A DNA stretch of 36,677 nucleotides from Acidobacteriota bacterium (GTDB taxonomy: Bacteria; Acidobacteriota; Terriglobia; Acidiferrales; UBA7541). The DNA is taken from assembly GCA_003166795.1 (NCBI GenBank), contig PMUS01000060.1, forward strand, positions 11,222-47,898, in the 5' to 3' direction. Made by a program: the position numbers and the translations under genes. A model generated the notes under the pieces. It did not search any database. It saw only the letters and a list, made by a program, of their open reading frames with translations, and was not told where the DNA came from. This document shows positions 3,257-7,508 of this stretch, one piece after another. Within the stretch, counting starts at the first letter, position 1; the number at the start of each line of letters is the position of its first letter.

Positions 3257-3571
3257 ATGGCCCAGCCACAACCGGCTCGAATCACCTGTAGTGAATGCAA
3301 CGGTTTCTATGTTACCGAACGCGAATTACGCGACCACATGCAGACTGCTCATCGAAGGTTTTTCTTGGAACAAAGCACTTTCCAGCATGGTGGTTCAGCG
3401 CCAGAGGGCTTTAAGAATCAACCTGGTACGTCCAAGGAAGAATGGGCCAAACTTTCTGGGCAGTTAAGGACTCGAGTCCAAGCCCGCTTCAACCCAGAAG
3501 AGTTAGACGCCATTGACCGATTTATACTCCTTGCCAGTCAGGGCTCGGTCTTCGATCAAGTGCGCCGATAG
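3257..3571 (+). CDS. small C2H2 zinc-finger-like protein, function unknown
   Basis: This 104-residue protein opens with a textbook C2H2 zinc-finger pattern: C11-x2-C14-x3-Y-x5-L-x2-H27-x4-H32. This pattern is common in eukaryotes and uncommon in bacteria, where Ros/MucR is the best-known group and has a different zinc-ligand spacing and domain context. The remaining 70 residues are polar, with a C-terminal amphipathic segment (FNPEELDAIDRFILLASQ), and show no known domain. A strong Shine-Dalgarno (GAGGAGGT) precedes the ATG, so translation is convincing. It stands alone between the GT4 gene and the RiPP-like operon. DNA, RNA or protein binding is an inference; I do not recognise the family. 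Confidence 0.75.
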   Translation: MAQPQPARITCSECNGFYVTERELRDHMQTAHRRFFLEQSTFQHGGSAPEGFKNQPGTSKEEWAKLSGQLRTRVQARFNPEELDAIDRFILLASQGSVFDQVRR

Positions 3572-3837
3572 CAACGACTCGCAAAGCTTGTGACCTAATA
3601 TCGCGGCGGCCTTCGCACTCTGGTGTCAAATTAGCCCCGATTGCTGTGCCTCTGCTGAATCACCCACGGGCGTGCGAGTGTCTCCGCGCGCCCCGGTTTC
3701 CTCCAGTTCGCTGACATCTGACTCCACTTCATCCCTGCGATTCTTGCGATCGTTAGTATTTTCGTAAGACTTTCAAAACTGCGCCACTGATGACTCGTTT
3801 CTCGCTGTAGTTTTCTCCCTCTCTGTGGTCCTGAAGA

Positions 3838-3856
3838 CGATCAAATTGTGTGATCG
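3838..3856. promoter_or_regulatory. inverted repeat CGATCA-N7-TGATCG
   Basis: Perfect 6-bp arms (3838-3843 and 3851-3856) are separated by seven bases. It lies about 200 bp upstream of the sigma-54-like promoter. It could be a remote activator site, but an isolated 6-bp palindrome can arise by chance. Confidence 0.2.
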
Positions 3857-3950
3857 CGTTGCTGCGCCCAGCAGCACGCCGCGACTGCGAGTGCCAAAAA
3901 GTGGCTATCCGCGGCAAGAGGACCGTGCAGGGAAAAGGGCTTCCTCTACG

Positions 3951-3966
3951 GGGCAAATCCTTGCCC
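3951..3966. promoter_or_regulatory. inverted repeat GGGCAA-N4-TTGCCC, candidate activator site
   Basis: Perfect 6-bp arms are separated by ATCC. The centre lies about 120 bp upstream of the start point predicted from the -24/-12 promoter at 4055. That is within the usual range for upstream activating sequences bound by sigma-54 enhancer-binding proteins. No such activator is encoded in the window, so the link is an inference. Confidence 0.35.
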
Positions 3967-4054
3967 GCGGGGCTTGCCATCCGTGAACAAGGATTGCGGC
4001 CGCCCGATAACCAGTGAATTGTCAGTGAGTTACCGACCGACCTCGCCGCCCAAG

Positions 4055-4070
4055 TGGTATCGCACTTGCC
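4055..4070 (+). promoter_or_regulatory. candidate sigma-54 (RpoN) -24/-12 promoter
   Basis: TGGTATCGCACTTGCC fits the sigma-54 consensus TGGCACG-N4-TTGCW. The invariant GG (4056-4057) and GC (4068-4069) are present with the required 10-bp gap, and the -12 element TTGC is complete. The predicted start is near 4081, giving a leader of about 120 nt before the 4202 ATG. RpoN promoters are known for some exopolysaccharide and PEP-CTERM loci, which makes use here plausible. Confidence 0.6.
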
Positions 4071-4201
4071 AAGTAACAAGTGATGAGGCATCTCGCGAGT
4101 TATTCGGGGTGGCTGGGGGCCATTGATTCGCGGACGGATCGAGTTCAGGGAGGTCGGCAAAACGGACCGATCCACTCAACTTGGCGTTAAAGGAGATGTA
4201 T

Positions 4202-4297
4202 ATGAAAAAGTACGTGAAGCCCAGTCTGACGGCCCTTGGTCTGCTGCGCGAGGTTACGAAGTTAAGCCGTTGCGAAATATGGTGCGAAGTTCTCTAG
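4202..4297 (+). CDS. lasso-like RiPP precursor peptide (31 aa)
   Basis: This short gene encodes 31 residues. The leader MKKYVKPSLTALGLLREVTK matches the known lasso leader pattern Y-x2-P-x-L-x3-G-x5-T at every fixed position (Y4, P7, L9, G13, T19). By the lasso rule, Thr is the second-last leader residue, so the core is LSRCEIWCEVL. Leu as core residue 1 is known from citrulassin. Glu is at core position 9, which would allow a nine-residue macrolactam ring, and the core holds a C-x3-C pair (C4, C8) and a Trp. The tail would be only Val-Leu, much shorter than in threaded lassos, and the stop TAG is followed at once by TAA. A near-perfect Shine-Dalgarno (AAAGGAG, 4189-4195) lies 6 bp before the ATG. 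The genes downstream encode the matching B1 and B2 proteins. Confidence 0.8.
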   Translation: MKKYVKPSLTALGLLREVTKLSRCEIWCEVL

Positions 4298-4307
4298 TAA
4301 TTGAACT

Positions 4308-4361
4308 TCGGAAGGCGGGAAGGAACGAGTCAGCACTCGCGACAACTTTCCCGCTTTCCGA
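4308..4361 (+). promoter_or_regulatory. long stem-loop between precursor and maturation genes
   Basis: A 14-bp stem pairs 4308-4321 with 4348-4361, with a single G-U pair. Its loop contains an inner hairpin, CGAGT-CAGC-ACTCG (4326-4339). It begins 10 bp after the precursor stop codon and has no T-run. Hairpins in this position in peptide operons commonly stabilise the short precursor mRNA or cause partial termination, so that precursor exceeds enzymes. That role is inferred here. Confidence 0.65.
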
Positions 4362-4413
4362 GGACAAATCAGCCCGCTTCTTCGAAAAGTTTGGTCGAAA
4401 ACGGAGGCACGAA

Positions 4414-4683
4414 ATGATTAGCCGCGAGAGTTGCCCTAGGCGCATGGAGCAGGTGATCGCCCAGAAAGCGTCGAACGATTTTCTGCTCTTCAACATGGAT
4501 AACGGAAACTACTATTCGCTGAACGATATCGGCGGCAGGATTTGGGAGCTTTGCGACGGACAGCATAGCGTGTCGCAACTCGTTGTAACCATCGCCACGG
4601 AGTATGACGCCCCGGCTGAAATTGTTGAGAAGGATATTGTGGATCTGCTCGAGGGACTGCAGGACGGGAAGCTGATCAGCTAG
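4414..4683 (+). CDS. PqqD-family RiPP recognition protein (lasso B1-like)
   Basis: This 89-residue protein is a PqqD-like RRE (RiPP recognition element), the small winged-helix chaperone that binds a leader peptide and presents it to modifying enzymes. Typical features are the beta-hairpin FLLFNMDNGNYYSLNDIG (about residues 23-40), the helix IWELCDG and the C-terminal helices ending in DLLEGLQDGKLI. The frame is open far upstream to 4123, but the ATG at 4414 follows GGAGG (4403-4407) at ideal distance and the family starts here. The upstream part would also overlap the precursor in another frame. By context it should bind the YxxPxL part of the 4202 leader. Confidence 0.88.
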   Translation: MISRESCPRRMEQVIAQKASNDFLLFNMDNGNYYSLNDIGGRIWELCDGQHSVSQLVVTIATEYDAPAEIVEKDIVDLLEGLQDGKLIS

Positions 4684-4832
4684 AAGAGCGGTTCGGACGC
4701 GCTCGCGCCCGGCCGAGAAGAAAAACTCGGATGAAGTTTCCGGCCAGAACTCTTGATGAGTAATCGGAGCGACGATATGCAGCCGCAATCCCACTCGATC
4801 GCGATTGGCCAACTTCGATCTCGAGATCAAAT

Positions 4833-5300
4833 ATGAAACTGCGACTCTTCTCCAATGCCGCTCTCTTCCTGCGCGTGCTTGCTTTCGCAGCTGCTGTCCC
4901 GTACTTGCTAAGGCTGAAGTTGTCCACGGTCGCCCGCGTGATCGAGTCCGAAAAGAATCCGTCGGTCCTGAGTGAAGGCAGGGTCGGGAAAATAGTGGCC
5001 TATGTCGAGAGGGCCATTCGCCACGGCAGGCCTCTCGTGCGCCCAGGATGCTTGACCCGCGGCGTGACGCGCTACTACTTCCTTCGGAGAGCCGGGATGG
5101 ATGTTGCTCTGTGCTTCGGGATGGGTCGGCTCGACAAGGACTTTATTGGCCATTGCTGGCTGGCAAGTGACGGAGAGCCCTTCCTCGAGGTCGAGGACCC
5201 ACGGCGCCGGTATATTGAAATGTACCGCATCTCGCGAGAGGGCGGCCGAGCCTCCACGCATGCCGAGGCCAGCGGAATGAGGAGACTCTCCCACTCGTGA
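4833..5300 (+). CDS. lasso-type B2 leader peptidase (transglutaminase-like Cys protease)
   Basis: This 155-residue protein fits the lasso peptide biosynthesis B2 family (Transglut_core3), which removes the leader peptide. The likely Cys-His-Asp triad is C73 in RPGCLTRGV, H107 in GHCWLASDG and D113 in the same block; the H-x5-D-G spacing is that of the family. The N-terminus carries a hydrophobic helix (about residues 9-26), common in B2 proteins. No clear Shine-Dalgarno precedes the ATG, which may be translated by coupling to an upstream frame. Its last codon overlaps the GTG start of the kinase gene (GTGA). Length is normal for the family. Confidence 0.85.
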   Translation: MKLRLFSNAALFLRVLAFAAAVPYLLRLKLSTVARVIESEKNPSVLSEGRVGKIVAYVERAIRHGRPLVRPGCLTRGVTRYYFLRRAGMDVALCFGMGRLDKDFIGHCWLASDGEPFLEVEDPRRRYIEMYRISREGGRASTHAEASGMRRLSHS

Positions 5301-6301
5301 GTGAAATCCAGCAGACACGATCCTATTCTTTCCACGGCCTGGACCTCAGGATAGCGTGCTCCGCTGCCATAGCAGATTCTTTGGACAGCCGCTTCCGTCT
5401 TCTTCCTTCCGGCGAGAAGCATCAACAAATCATCTCCTTTAATTTTCGATCCGTGCCCGATGGAAGCCAGCACTGTGTGGAAAAGCCGCAGGGCGAGGGG
5501 CGATCTTTTTATGAGCTGCCCTCCGGCGAGGGCGTCTATTTCAAAGGAGGGGACCAACTCTACCTTAGCTTTGGAGACGGAGTGCGAGTCTTGAGCAGAC
5601 CTGACCTGGGTTGCGCTTCGTTTTCCATCGTCGAGTCGGAACCCGCTAACTTGTTTATGGCCTCCCATCTTATGCTCACGATCTTGTTGGTTGAAATGTT
5701 GAAGCGGCGCGGCTGCTATAGCATGCACGCGGCGGGATTCAGCAAAGACGGCAAGGTCATTCTCATTCCGGGCACGAGCGGCGCCGGCAAGTCTACGCTG
5801 GCCATCACGCTTTTGAGGGGTGGGTTCGGTTACCTGAGCGACGACATGGTGTTTCTGCGGCGGAGTTCGGATGGATTGCGAGTCCTCGGCTTCCCAGAGG
5901 ACGTGGATGTGAGCGATCAGACGATAAGGTTTTTCTCCGAGCTGGATTTTCTCCGAGGCGTTCCAAAGCCGTTCGCGTGGGCAAAAAGTCAAGTCCGGGC
6001 AGACGAGGTCTACGGGATTGAAGTGATTCGCGAAGCCCGCCCGGGAGCCATCGTAATTCCGAAGATTTCCGCAAAGGAAAAAAGCGAAATTCGGCCGATC
6101 GACGCGGATGAAGCCTTGCTCGAAATGGTTTCCAACGTCCTGCTCACGGAAGGGCGCTCCTGCCAGAGCCATCTGGATATCCTGACCGAGCTGGTAAGGC
6201 AGACGCCCTGTTATCGGCTCGAGACAGGGCGCGACTTCGATCGCATTCCCGTCATCCTCGGTGAGTTGCTGAGTGGCAGTCGAGAGGAAGTTCATGCCTA
6301 A
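5297..6301 (+). CDS. HPr kinase/phosphorylase-like kinase of a RiPP cluster
   Basis: This 334-residue protein has an HPrK-type C-terminal kinase domain: HAAGF (144-148), Walker A GTSGAGKST (159-167), then GYLSDDMVFL (178-187) with the acidic pair used by HPrK enzymes. The N-terminal 120 residues differ from classical HPrK. Relatives in lasso clusters, such as that of paeninodin, phosphorylate the C-terminal serine of the peptide. Here the predicted core ends in Leu and its only Ser is core residue 2, so the target is uncertain. Similar kinases also occur with PqqD proteins in polysaccharide loci (HPr-rel-A systems). It starts with GTG overlapping the B2 stop and overlaps the next gene by 8 bp. 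Confidence 0.85.
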   Translation: MSEIQQTRSYSFHGLDLRIACSAAIADSLDSRFRLLPSGEKHQQIISFNFRSVPDGSQHCVEKPQGEGRSFYELPSGEGVYFKGGDQLYLSFGDGVRVLSRPDLGCASFSIVESEPANLFMASHLMLTILLVEMLKRRGCYSMHAAGFSKDGKVILIPGTSGAGKSTLAITLLRGGFGYLSDDMVFLRRSSDGLRVLGFPEDVDVSDQTIRFFSELDFLRGVPKPFAWAKSQVRADEVYGIEVIREARPGAIVIPKISAKEKSEIRPIDADEALLEMVSNVLLTEGRSCQSHLDILTELVRQTPCYRLETGRDFDRIPVILGELLSGSREEVHA

Positions 6302-7508
6302 ACCACTTATGCAATCCCCAGACGCGAGAAGCCGGCGCGAAGCGGACTTGCTTCTGGCCTGTGCGCGGACTCAGATCACCCCGAGAATCTCCGATCGGAT
6401 CCGGGCGGCGGTTCAGCAGGAGATAGATTGGATTGGACTGATCCGGCTGGCGATGCGCCACGACGTGATGCCGCTCTTGTATCGGAACCTCCAGTTTGTC
6501 TGCCCAAATTCCGTGCCGGAAAGCGTATTTCGGCCAGTCCGCGCGCGATACGAGGTGCAGACGGCGCAGGCCAAGCGCTACGCTGAAGAACTCGTGCGGA
6601 TACTATCGTTGTTTGAAGAGCAGGGGATCCCCGCAGTGCCTTACAAAGGCCCGACGCTGGCCCAAAGGCTCTATGGCGATCTATCGCTGCGAGAGTTCGG
6701 CGATTTGGACATTATGATCCTTCAGCGCGACGTCCCGAGGGCCCAGGATCTGATTCGGTCCTACGGCTATAAGTTCGCCTATCTGAAAAGCGCGGACAAA
6801 CTCACTGAATACATTCGGGCCAACCGTGAATTGCAGTTCTATCACCCCGATGGAACCCAGTTGGAGTTGCACTGGCGATTTGCGTTGCAATTGGCATGTG
6901 TGAAGCACGACCCGGAGCGATTCTTACAGCGGTTTGAAACGATCTCACTTGCCGGTGCGCAGGTGCCCAGCCTGCCTCTGGAAGTTTATTTCCTGATCCT
7001 CGCCATGCATGGGACCAAGCACAAGTGGAGACAGCTCAAGTTGATCTGCGACATTGCTGAAATCCTTGGACAACCCGACCTCGACTGGAAATACGTGTTG
7101 CAGGAGGCAGACGATCTGGGTCTAAAGCGGATGTTGGCGGTCGCGGCGCTGTTGGCCGAAGATCCACTCGAAGCGGTCGTACCTGCAGAACTGGCTCACG
7201 GACTGAACATCGATCGCACGGCGAGAGCTTTAACCGCCGAGGTTCGCCGCGCCCTTTTCGAGGCGCCTGTTGAAGACTGGCATGCGCAGGCTGATTTTCC
7301 TTTTCAGCTCAAAATCCGTGAACGCCTCCGGGACAGGGCGAGCATGTTGTTCTGGAATCTGCCGTCCAAACTCGAGCCAGACGAACGCGACCGGCGTTTT
7401 CTGCCAATGCCGGAGTTTCTTTCTTCCATGTATTACATGGTAAGGCCTGTTCGATTGGCGTGGGAAAAACTGAACGATAGAGAGACCGCAAGCACGTCCC
7501 GGGTTTGA
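6294..7508 (+). CDS. nucleotidyltransferase family protein (NTP_transf_5-like)
   Basis: This 404-residue protein belongs to the nucleotidyltransferases often found beside B1/B2 and HPrK-like genes. The characteristic block YKGPTLAQRLYGDLSLREFGDLDIMI has the conserved lysine, the LYGD...R..GDLDI motif and the metal-binding D-x-D. The following H-W-R segment (LELHWRF) is also typical. The ATG at 6294 follows AGAGGAAG closely; a GTG 21 bp upstream is less likely. It may nucleotidylate a peptide or sugar, but the substrate of this family is not firmly known. It is the last gene of the coupled B2-kinase-NTase set and meets a convergent GT2 gene 14 bp later. Confidence 0.85.
   Translation: MPKPLMQSPDARSRREADLLLACARTQITPRISDRIRAAVQQEIDWIGLIRLAMRHDVMPLLYRNLQFVCPNSVPESVFRPVRARYEVQTAQAKRYAEELVRILSLFEEQGIPAVPYKGPTLAQRLYGDLSLREFGDLDIMILQRDVPRAQDLIRSYGYKFAYLKSADKLTEYIRANRELQFYHPDGTQLELHWRFALQLACVKHDPERFLQRFETISLAGAQVPSLPLEVYFLILAMHGTKHKWRQLKLICDIAEILGQPDLDWKYVLQEADDLGLKRMLAVAALLAEDPLEAVVPAELAHGLNIDRTARALTAEVRRALFEAPVEDWHAQADFPFQLKIRERLRDRASMLFWNLPSKLEPDERDRRFLPMPEFLSSMYYMVRPVRLAWEKLNDRETASTSRV

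Follow-up and report, generated by a model that had tools for sequence, protein, structure and literature searches.

Serine phosphorylation has been described in several pathways for ribosomally synthesized and post-translationally modified peptides (RiPPs). Specifically, the kinase BsfK, assisted by a RiPP recognition element (RRE), adds phosphate to core Ser3 of a lasso precursor whose leader is cut by a B2 peptidase (PMC10368454). In the pseudomycoidin pathway, the nucleotidyltransferase-like protein (NTase) PsmN is needed for hexoses on phospho-Ser, and a His-Lys-Asp-Asp set of residues is reported for lasso kinases (PMC9266682). In the case of linear polyphosphorylated peptides (LPPs), the HprK-like kinase LppK puts multiple phosphates on core Ser3, just past the leader Thr; leader removal falls to a signal-peptidase-type enzyme presented by the RRE, the product is linear, and the role of the NTase was left unsettled (Popov et al. 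2026, PMC13381572). For all of these systems we draw on parts of the published reports. Here, we analyze a 36,677-nucleotide stretch of acidobacterial DNA (the window), which corresponds to bases 11222-47898 of the 47,898-base contig C112 of a 3.92-Mb genome (G000; 115 contigs, 92.9% complete); 11,221 bases of C112 lie left of the window. At 4202-7508 of the window, a short precursor gene is followed by the genes PqqD-B2-kinase-NTase, which we call the cassette. The best explanation, and one we hold to be fairly probable, is a lasso-derived, cyclase-free, LPP-like RiPP system that has kept B2, makes linear peptides phosphorylated on a Ser near the leader/core junction, and serves precursors scattered through the genome. 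Put simply, judging from the genes, the probable task of this enzyme kit is to phosphorylate and trim tiny peptides that are encoded at scattered places.

Dispersed precursors share a leader and a Thr-Ser register

The window precursor (4202-4297; ATG at 4202, TAG ending at 4297; like the other features at 4051-7508, on the forward strand) is a 31-residue peptide, MKKYVKPSLTALGLLREVTKLSRCEIWCEVL, and AAAGGAG stands upstream of its ATG. The presumed cleavage site, placed by the lasso rule with T at -2, would divide it into the leader MKKYVKPSLTALGLLREVTK and the core LSRCEIWCEVL, in which the conserved Ser is core position 2. A leader profile built from this precursor and four precursors of relatives (five peptides) finds the window precursor, itself in the profile, at E 3.5e-16, and four further copies in the same genome, absent from the profile, at E 2.3e-13 to 1.7e-8. 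The five precursors lie on five contigs (C112, C36, C71, C7, and C33), each with an ATG preceded by a purine-rich stretch; a ten-sequence profile that contains them matches them at E 2.1e-18 to 6.5e-14.

The cassette occurs in three further genomes, G541, G463, and G360, which together with G000 are referred to as carriers. G541 encodes two precursors on its cassette contig and one on contig C417, plus a degenerate copy. The latter, at 7097-7186 of its locus (L098), is a leader remnant, RKTYRKPSITALGLLRS, just before PqqD, with no in-frame ATG or GTG and a subsequent loss of register. G463 and G360 have one precursor each, MKKYSKPSLRCLGLLRLVTKFSF and MSLKPYIKPKLRFLGLLRLLTKLSF, with stops (TAA and TGA, respectively) three residues past the leader TK. 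Precursor lengths across the four carriers range from 23 to 39 amino acids. Among 89 genomes of the family, leader matches to the first profile at E < 1e-6 occur in all four cassette genomes and in none of the 85 others. The next-best match (E 9.6e-4; G460, locus L084) falls, by our reading, in a locus with a lasso precursor of the YGTVRELT type; at 5772-6693, this one cyclase locus has two different lasso-type precursors. With the ten-sequence profile, no further copy was found in 12 genomes (the four carriers and eight others), and the best non-carrier match has an E of 0.108.

What the ten precursors have in common is a register. The leader pattern is YxxPxL with Thr at -2: Y and T are present in all ten, separated by a constant spacing of 15, and P in nine (R in the C33 copy). 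The resulting positions, Y-17, P-14, L-12, and T-2, are lasso-like. The first Ser after the TK stands three residues past the Thr in 7/10 peptides (all those of G000, G463, and G360) and five residues past it in the three from G541. The cores themselves are dissimilar. In the own genome they are LSRCEIWCEVL (C112), YSICLPIYSR, FSGCGIETLGRRAECTL, YSGPTCDIRINEVVVCGKY, and LSHPCVPSDCKGAITRD; in G541, CVYSGQLPE, QTLSGGDPNWCHRVTG, and CLYSGCPLD; and in G463 and G360, the tripeptides FSF and LSF.

An Asp or Glu acceptor at core position 7-9 with a threadable tail, as a lasso fold demands, is not a general feature of these cores. Three of the ten contain no Asp or Glu at all, so no lasso ring can close on them. 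The other seven have Asp or Glu at position 7-9, and in three of those the tail is 0-2 residues long. Precursors from the family's cyclase-bearing clusters look different: Asp stands at core 8-9 in 14 of 17 and at 10 in the remaining three (the latter assigned by eye), and Ser occupies core position 2 in 1/17.

The four precursors outside C112 have no recognized RiPP gene beside them. The idea of a shared neighborhood for the orphan precursors was rejected: the 10 neighbors at the five places show no common theme, being cupin, abhydrolase, DUF4386, FtsK, O-methyltransferase, AMP-ligase, and LigB proteins and three without a match.

The cassettes encode no cyclase

The original prediction, made from the window alone, described a 31-residue precursor with a lasso-type leader followed by genes for PqqD/RRE, B2, an HPrK-like kinase, and an NTase, and noted that no cyclase was encoded. 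Profiles and the leader search bear out the gene content. A PF00733 search of the whole own genome (E <= 0.001) found no asparagine-synthase match anywhere on C112, which also disposes of a cyclase gene just beyond the left edge, the finding that would have told against a cyclase-free system; matches were confined to contigs C57, C65, C67, and C92. The C57 match is an XrtA-type amidotransferase/asparagine synthase, the C92 match is MnmA, and the C67 match is a 234-residue frame. On C65, a lasso cyclase stands beside PqqD, B2, and kinase genes (locus L007, 5524-9432). This cyclase gene is broken by N at an assembly gap, and its pieces score below the model cut-off; the N-terminal piece fits the lasso model better than any other family (277 bits), and the C-terminal piece scores 54.0 bits against the lasso model versus 54.9 against asparagine synthase.

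No cyclase gene was found in any of the four cassettes, 17-20 kb having been fetched per relative's locus, and each of the four genomes has a precursor of this leader type. Elsewhere in the genomes, the best family for genes on G463 contig C24 and G541 contig C54 is the lasso cyclase (NF033535; 406.7 and 337.6 bits, both below the cut-off of 525). The G463 gene has its own precursor and kinase adjoining it, and no PqqD, B2, kinase, or precursor was found near the G541 gene on its 10.9-kb contig. In G360, the lasso-cyclase model picks out three genes. All three fit XrtA amidotransferase/asparagine-synthase models better and pass the asparagine-synthase cut-off, and no lasso cyclase was found in this genome, which is 97% complete. 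Because the G360 matches resemble XrtA/asparagine synthases, at least one carrier seems, from its gene content, to run the cassette without a lasso cyclase.

One alternative is that true lasso peptides are made in trans, with the C65-cluster cyclase also closing rings on the dispersed precursors. A lasso-cyclase-like gene does exist in G000, G463, and G541, the leader register is of the lasso type, and four of the ten cores (C71, C7, C33, and G541 C270b) combine an acceptor with a workable tail of 8-12 residues, so that those four could in principle form lassos. However, G360 has no such cyclase, six of the ten cores have either no acceptor or almost no tail, and the C65 and C24 cyclases adjoin their own precursors, which have another leader type and an Asp, in keeping with the Asp at 8-10 in all 17 cyclase-cluster precursors. 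We therefore regard ring closure in trans as unlikely. Thus, the earlier suggestion that a cyclase is supplied from elsewhere stands insofar as the own genome encodes one on C65, and falters insofar as that gene belongs to a separate cluster with a precursor of its own, placed between cyclase and kinase.

Enzymes of the cassette

PqqD (4414-4683) is a PqqD/B1-like discrete RRE (PF05402, E 9.8e-19). It scores 56 bits against the lasso_PqqD model NF033536, below the cut-off of 80, and its best Protein Data Bank (PDB) sequence matches are the lasso PqqD-family chaperone 9x90 (E 5.1e-9) and TbiB1 5v1u (E 3.9e-8). B2 (4833-5300) is a leader peptidase of the transglutaminase-like Cys protease kind (NF033537, 56.7 bits; cut-off 33). 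It keeps the Cys and His shared by 99% of the 74 B2 sequences aligned, and each of the four cassette B2s reads HCW where HAW is usual. The HPrK-like peptide kinase (5297-6301) has a Walker A motif, GTSGAGKS, and scores 59 bits against TIGR04352 (cut-off 200) and 26.7 bits against PF07475 (cut-off 33.3). By eye, its H144, K165, D182, and D183 correspond to the lasso-kinase His-Lys-Asp-Asp set and are invariant in all four homologues. The NTP_transf_5 NTase (6273-7508; PF14907, 196 bits; cut-off 31.2) has a GTG start at 6273, a possible ATG at 6294, and, by eye, a GDLD motif. PqqD, B2, and the NTase each pass a Pfam and/or NCBIfam cut-off. The last three genes overlap, as originally read: B2 and kinase by 4 nt, kinase and NTase by 29 nt (8 nt with the ATG at 6294); PqqD and B2 do not overlap.

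PDB sequence searches returned no match for the kinase profile or for B2. For the NTase, the two ribosomal-protein matches (E 0.16 and 0.27) were dismissed as chance. Structure predictions of the NTase and kinase from three-sequence alignments, with mean predicted local distance difference test scores of 50.0 and 45.3, were set aside.

B2 or the NTase could instead have acquired a bond-forming role, such as transpeptidation or AMP-activated condensation, that yields a non-lasso cycle or conjugate, with Ser phosphorylation as an intermediate step. B2 is transglutaminase-like, its HCW motif is unusual, and many cores offer one or two Cys residues. Still, the protease Cys and His are retained, the cassette differs from phosphorylated lasso clusters solely by the missing cyclase, and three-residue cores offer little to join. 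This, too, appears an improbable account of the locus.

Precursor copies and selective constraint

Portions of the DNA around the precursor are copied with it. The region at 4051-4201 also lies upstream of the C36 and C7 precursors; the match with C36 (75%) spans 4051-4273, that with C7 (73%) spans 4052-4260, and the C71 and C33 matches comprise the leader alone. Between the precursor stop and PqqD is a strong hairpin (4306-4363; a 90-nt fold of -35.2 kcal/mol, computed without a shuffle control), and a similar hairpin follows the stop at C112, C36, C7, and C71, but not at C33. No Rfam match at E <= 0.1 falls within 3500-4450. The ratio of non-synonymous to synonymous differences per site (pN/pS) in the leader is 0.27 for the five own copies, 0.33 for the three from G541, 0.58 for the G463/G360 pair, and 0.36 for all ten. 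The precursor of the window is more than a chance frame, since the leader profile finds four further copies and pN/pS is 0.27; contrary to a lack of conservation, which the original prediction took as grounds for abandoning it, the precursor is kept in three related loci. That the small frames are a dispersed repeat element or regulatory leader frames is highly improbable: upstream region and hairpin were copied along at three to four of the five places and one G541 copy is degenerate, but the pN/pS of 0.27, the complete register of a lasso-type leader, and an occurrence strictly tied to the cassette across 89 genomes speak for RiPP precursors.

Distribution and history of the cassette

The cassette is rare. 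The window kinase has two close relatives among 250 genomes of the class (55-58% identity), followed by a gap to about 29%. A three-sequence kinase profile adds the fourth carrier from the 89 family genomes, and a four-sequence profile returns the same four among 95 genomes of the order and, from 399 genomes sampled across the class, again four, which all belong to one family. In 84,980 named species, the kinase alignment recovers the G360 and G463 loci, which are recorded as 'Acidobacteria bacterium' metagenome-assembled genomes of the same family as the window, and one weak match, a 30%-identical stretch in Candidatus Accumulibacter (L093).

Gene order is the same in all four loci. The four cassette kinases form one clade (support 100/100; 61-row tree), as do the four B2s (100/98; 71-row tree), with bootstrap values not fully settled in either tree and weak support for the nearest neighbors of the clade. 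The kinase tree, which contained no LPP sequence, suggests that the cassette has its own origin within the sampled Acidobacteria. A lasso cluster decaying after cyclase loss would account for the rare and patchy occurrence, but is scarcely credible given that four enzymes keep the same order at protein identities of about 45-60%, that the four genes are free of internal stops, and that pairwise ratios of non-synonymous to synonymous substitution rates (dN/dS) are 0.14-0.50 where computable (9/24 pairs are saturated).

Separation of B2 from a cyclase seems common in this phylum. Specifically, among 61 B2 genes on 59 stretches (L099-L157) drawn from 83 listed places, 21 have no match within 6 kb to the cyclase models built for this analysis, and 12 of the 21 are flanked on either side by 6 kb of sequence or more. 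At six of the 21 loci, PqqD, kinase, and NTase genes accompany B2, but none yielded a precursor of this leader type; a radical SAM gene is present at two. We rejected the notion that the other cyclase-less loci are the same system. The radical SAM loci, in two other genomes of the phylum (L154, 3131-7381; L156, 3463-7626), hold B2, a peptide with a VFVEPEL leader, a kinase-like gene, PqqD, NTase, and the radical SAM protein (PF04055, 70 and 65 bits), with no cyclase match. They are possibly a second cyclase-free type in which the radical SAM enzyme stands in for the cyclase.

Flanking genes

The window cassette sits among glycosyltransferase and methyltransferase genes, and the original prediction tied it to glycan production. 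That tie does not extend to the relatives. Of 16 flanking open reading frames tested (five in G463, five in G360, and six in G541), those that look sugar-related number one in G360 (mannosyltransferase-like) and one in G541 (UDP-glucose dehydrogenase). The G463 and G360 flanks encode an ice-binding protein, a two-component system, and pentapeptide-repeat proteins; that of G541 encodes, besides the dehydrogenase, methyltransferases, a cobalamin-independent methionine-synthase-like protein, and a kumamolisin-type protein. Conservation of the system thus does not extend to its polysaccharide setting. In G463 and G360, the cassettes (L071 and L072) share one setting of ice-binding protein, histidine kinase, and pentapeptide-repeat protein, which suggests inheritance at one site in that genus. 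Just upstream of the window cassette, a 104-residue frame (3257-3571) has a C2H2-finger-like stretch (zf-C2H2, E 0.0042, below cut-off).

A proposed pathway

From the LPP and BsfK precedents, the Y-P-T-S register, the kept kinase residues, and the kept Cys and His of B2, we read the system as an LPP-like pathway to linear phosphopeptides that uses B2. The BsfK example, in the parts of the report used here, shows that one kind of site can be served by an RRE, a kinase, and B2 alike. We propose that the PqqD-type RRE would bind the YxKPxL leader and that the kinase would phosphorylate, once or perhaps repeatedly, the Ser found three residues past the leader Thr (five in G541). The NTase may add a further group, for example a sugar or a nucleotide, to the phosphate, and B2 would remove the leader, with no ring closure. 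One cassette would serve several precursors of like leader and unlike core that are encoded elsewhere in the genome. As to biological role, given the hypervariable cores, our guess is a secreted signal or a conflict peptide.

Several points weigh against this proposal. The four cores with acceptor and tail, and the cyclase-like genes elsewhere in three of the four carriers, have been mentioned. All five own copies use AGC for the conserved Ser, whose constancy can thus be put down in part to common descent. The pN/pS of 0.58 for G463/G360 rests on few changes and makes a weak case for constraint on the tripeptide forms. The kinase falls below the curated cut-offs of both libraries (Pfam and NCBIfam), the carrier genomes are drafts of 86-97% completeness, and no exporter was seen among the cassette genes or the 16 flanking frames tested.

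A bolder version, which we advance tentatively and consider possible rather than probable, is a trans-acting system: one cyclase-free cassette would mature monocistronic precursors that duplicate genome-wide, with cores varying around one phospho-Ser and shrunk, in two species, to a tripeptide (FSF or LSF). If so, the end product in those species would be a phosphorylated, further decorated tripeptide, nearer in size to pyrroloquinoline quinone (PQQ) or mycofactocin than to a peptide antibiotic. PQQ and mycofactocin are RiPP-derived cofactors. The tripeptide forms would also offer the smallest substrate on which to work out the activities of B2, the kinase, and the NTase, the last of which is poorly understood. 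Scattered precursors served by one maturation cassette would be hard to spot by cluster-based genome mining, because the other four own precursors have no recognized RiPP gene adjoining them.

Comparison with known systems

The original prediction of a lasso-derived but distinct RiPP type gains support from four of four cyclase-free cassettes, from G360 with no lasso cyclase, and from the three cores with no acceptor; it had not recognized the C65 lasso cluster, the four further precursors, or the published LPP family. We found no description of a B2-based system with dispersed precursors in open-licence papers (subscription papers lay outside our scope). If our proposal is correct, cyclase loss leading to linear phosphopeptides is not confined to the LPPs of Bacillota and is compatible with the original B2.

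In the parts of the LPP report used here (PMC13381572), LPP clusters resemble the cassette in having a discrete RRE, an HprK-like kinase (below curated cut-offs here), an NTP transferase, and no cyclase. Precursors with a conserved N-terminus and a variable C-terminus, a patchy distribution, and a lasso cluster often in the same genome are likewise common to both. Seven of our ten peptides space Y, P, T, and S as does the LPP leader consensus, YxxPxVLxHQxIxFETxxS; Y, P, the hydrophobic position, T, and S (7/10) are in register, and HQ and FE are absent. The differences are as follows, again from those parts. LPPs use the archaeal-type signal peptidase LppS and an MsbA-like transporter, whereas here B2 is the sole cassette protease, signal-peptidase (SpI, TIGR02228) matches in the four genomes all lie off the cassette contigs, and no such transporter was seen among the cassette genes and the 16 flanking frames of the other three loci. 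By that report, LPPs are confined to Bacillota and sit in capsular polysaccharide loci, with precursors of 35-200 amino acids in or near the cluster (5 kb on either side was searched); here the hosts are Acidobacteria, the polysaccharide setting is not conserved, and precursors are 23-39 amino acids long, several on other contigs.

Phosphorylated lasso clusters, as far as the portions of the reports used here describe them (paeninodin and pseudomycoidin, PMC9266682; bsf, PMC10368454), share the RRE, B2, HPrK-like kinase, and NTase, and their kinases act on a precursor Ser (Ser3 in BsfA; the C-terminal Ser in paeninodin). They encode the cyclase C, whereas the cassettes do not, and the acceptor Asp/Glu is not conserved here. 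Same-family lasso clusters (C65 in the own genome; L073-L087 and L194) have PqqD, B2, kinase, and often NTase homologues and a YxxPxL leader. They differ in having C, a precursor between C and kinase, a YGxxxxLT leader, a core Asp at 8-10, and kinases outside the cassette clade.

The system thus has the YxxPxL leader with Thr at -2, the discrete RRE (B1), and the B2 of lasso pathways, but departs from lasso on cyclase and acceptor, and from LPPs on the SpI and in-cluster transporter markers. We place it as a variant of the phosphorylated lasso/LPP kind, unusual for its B2 without a cyclase, its genome-dispersed precursors, and a core as short as three residues.

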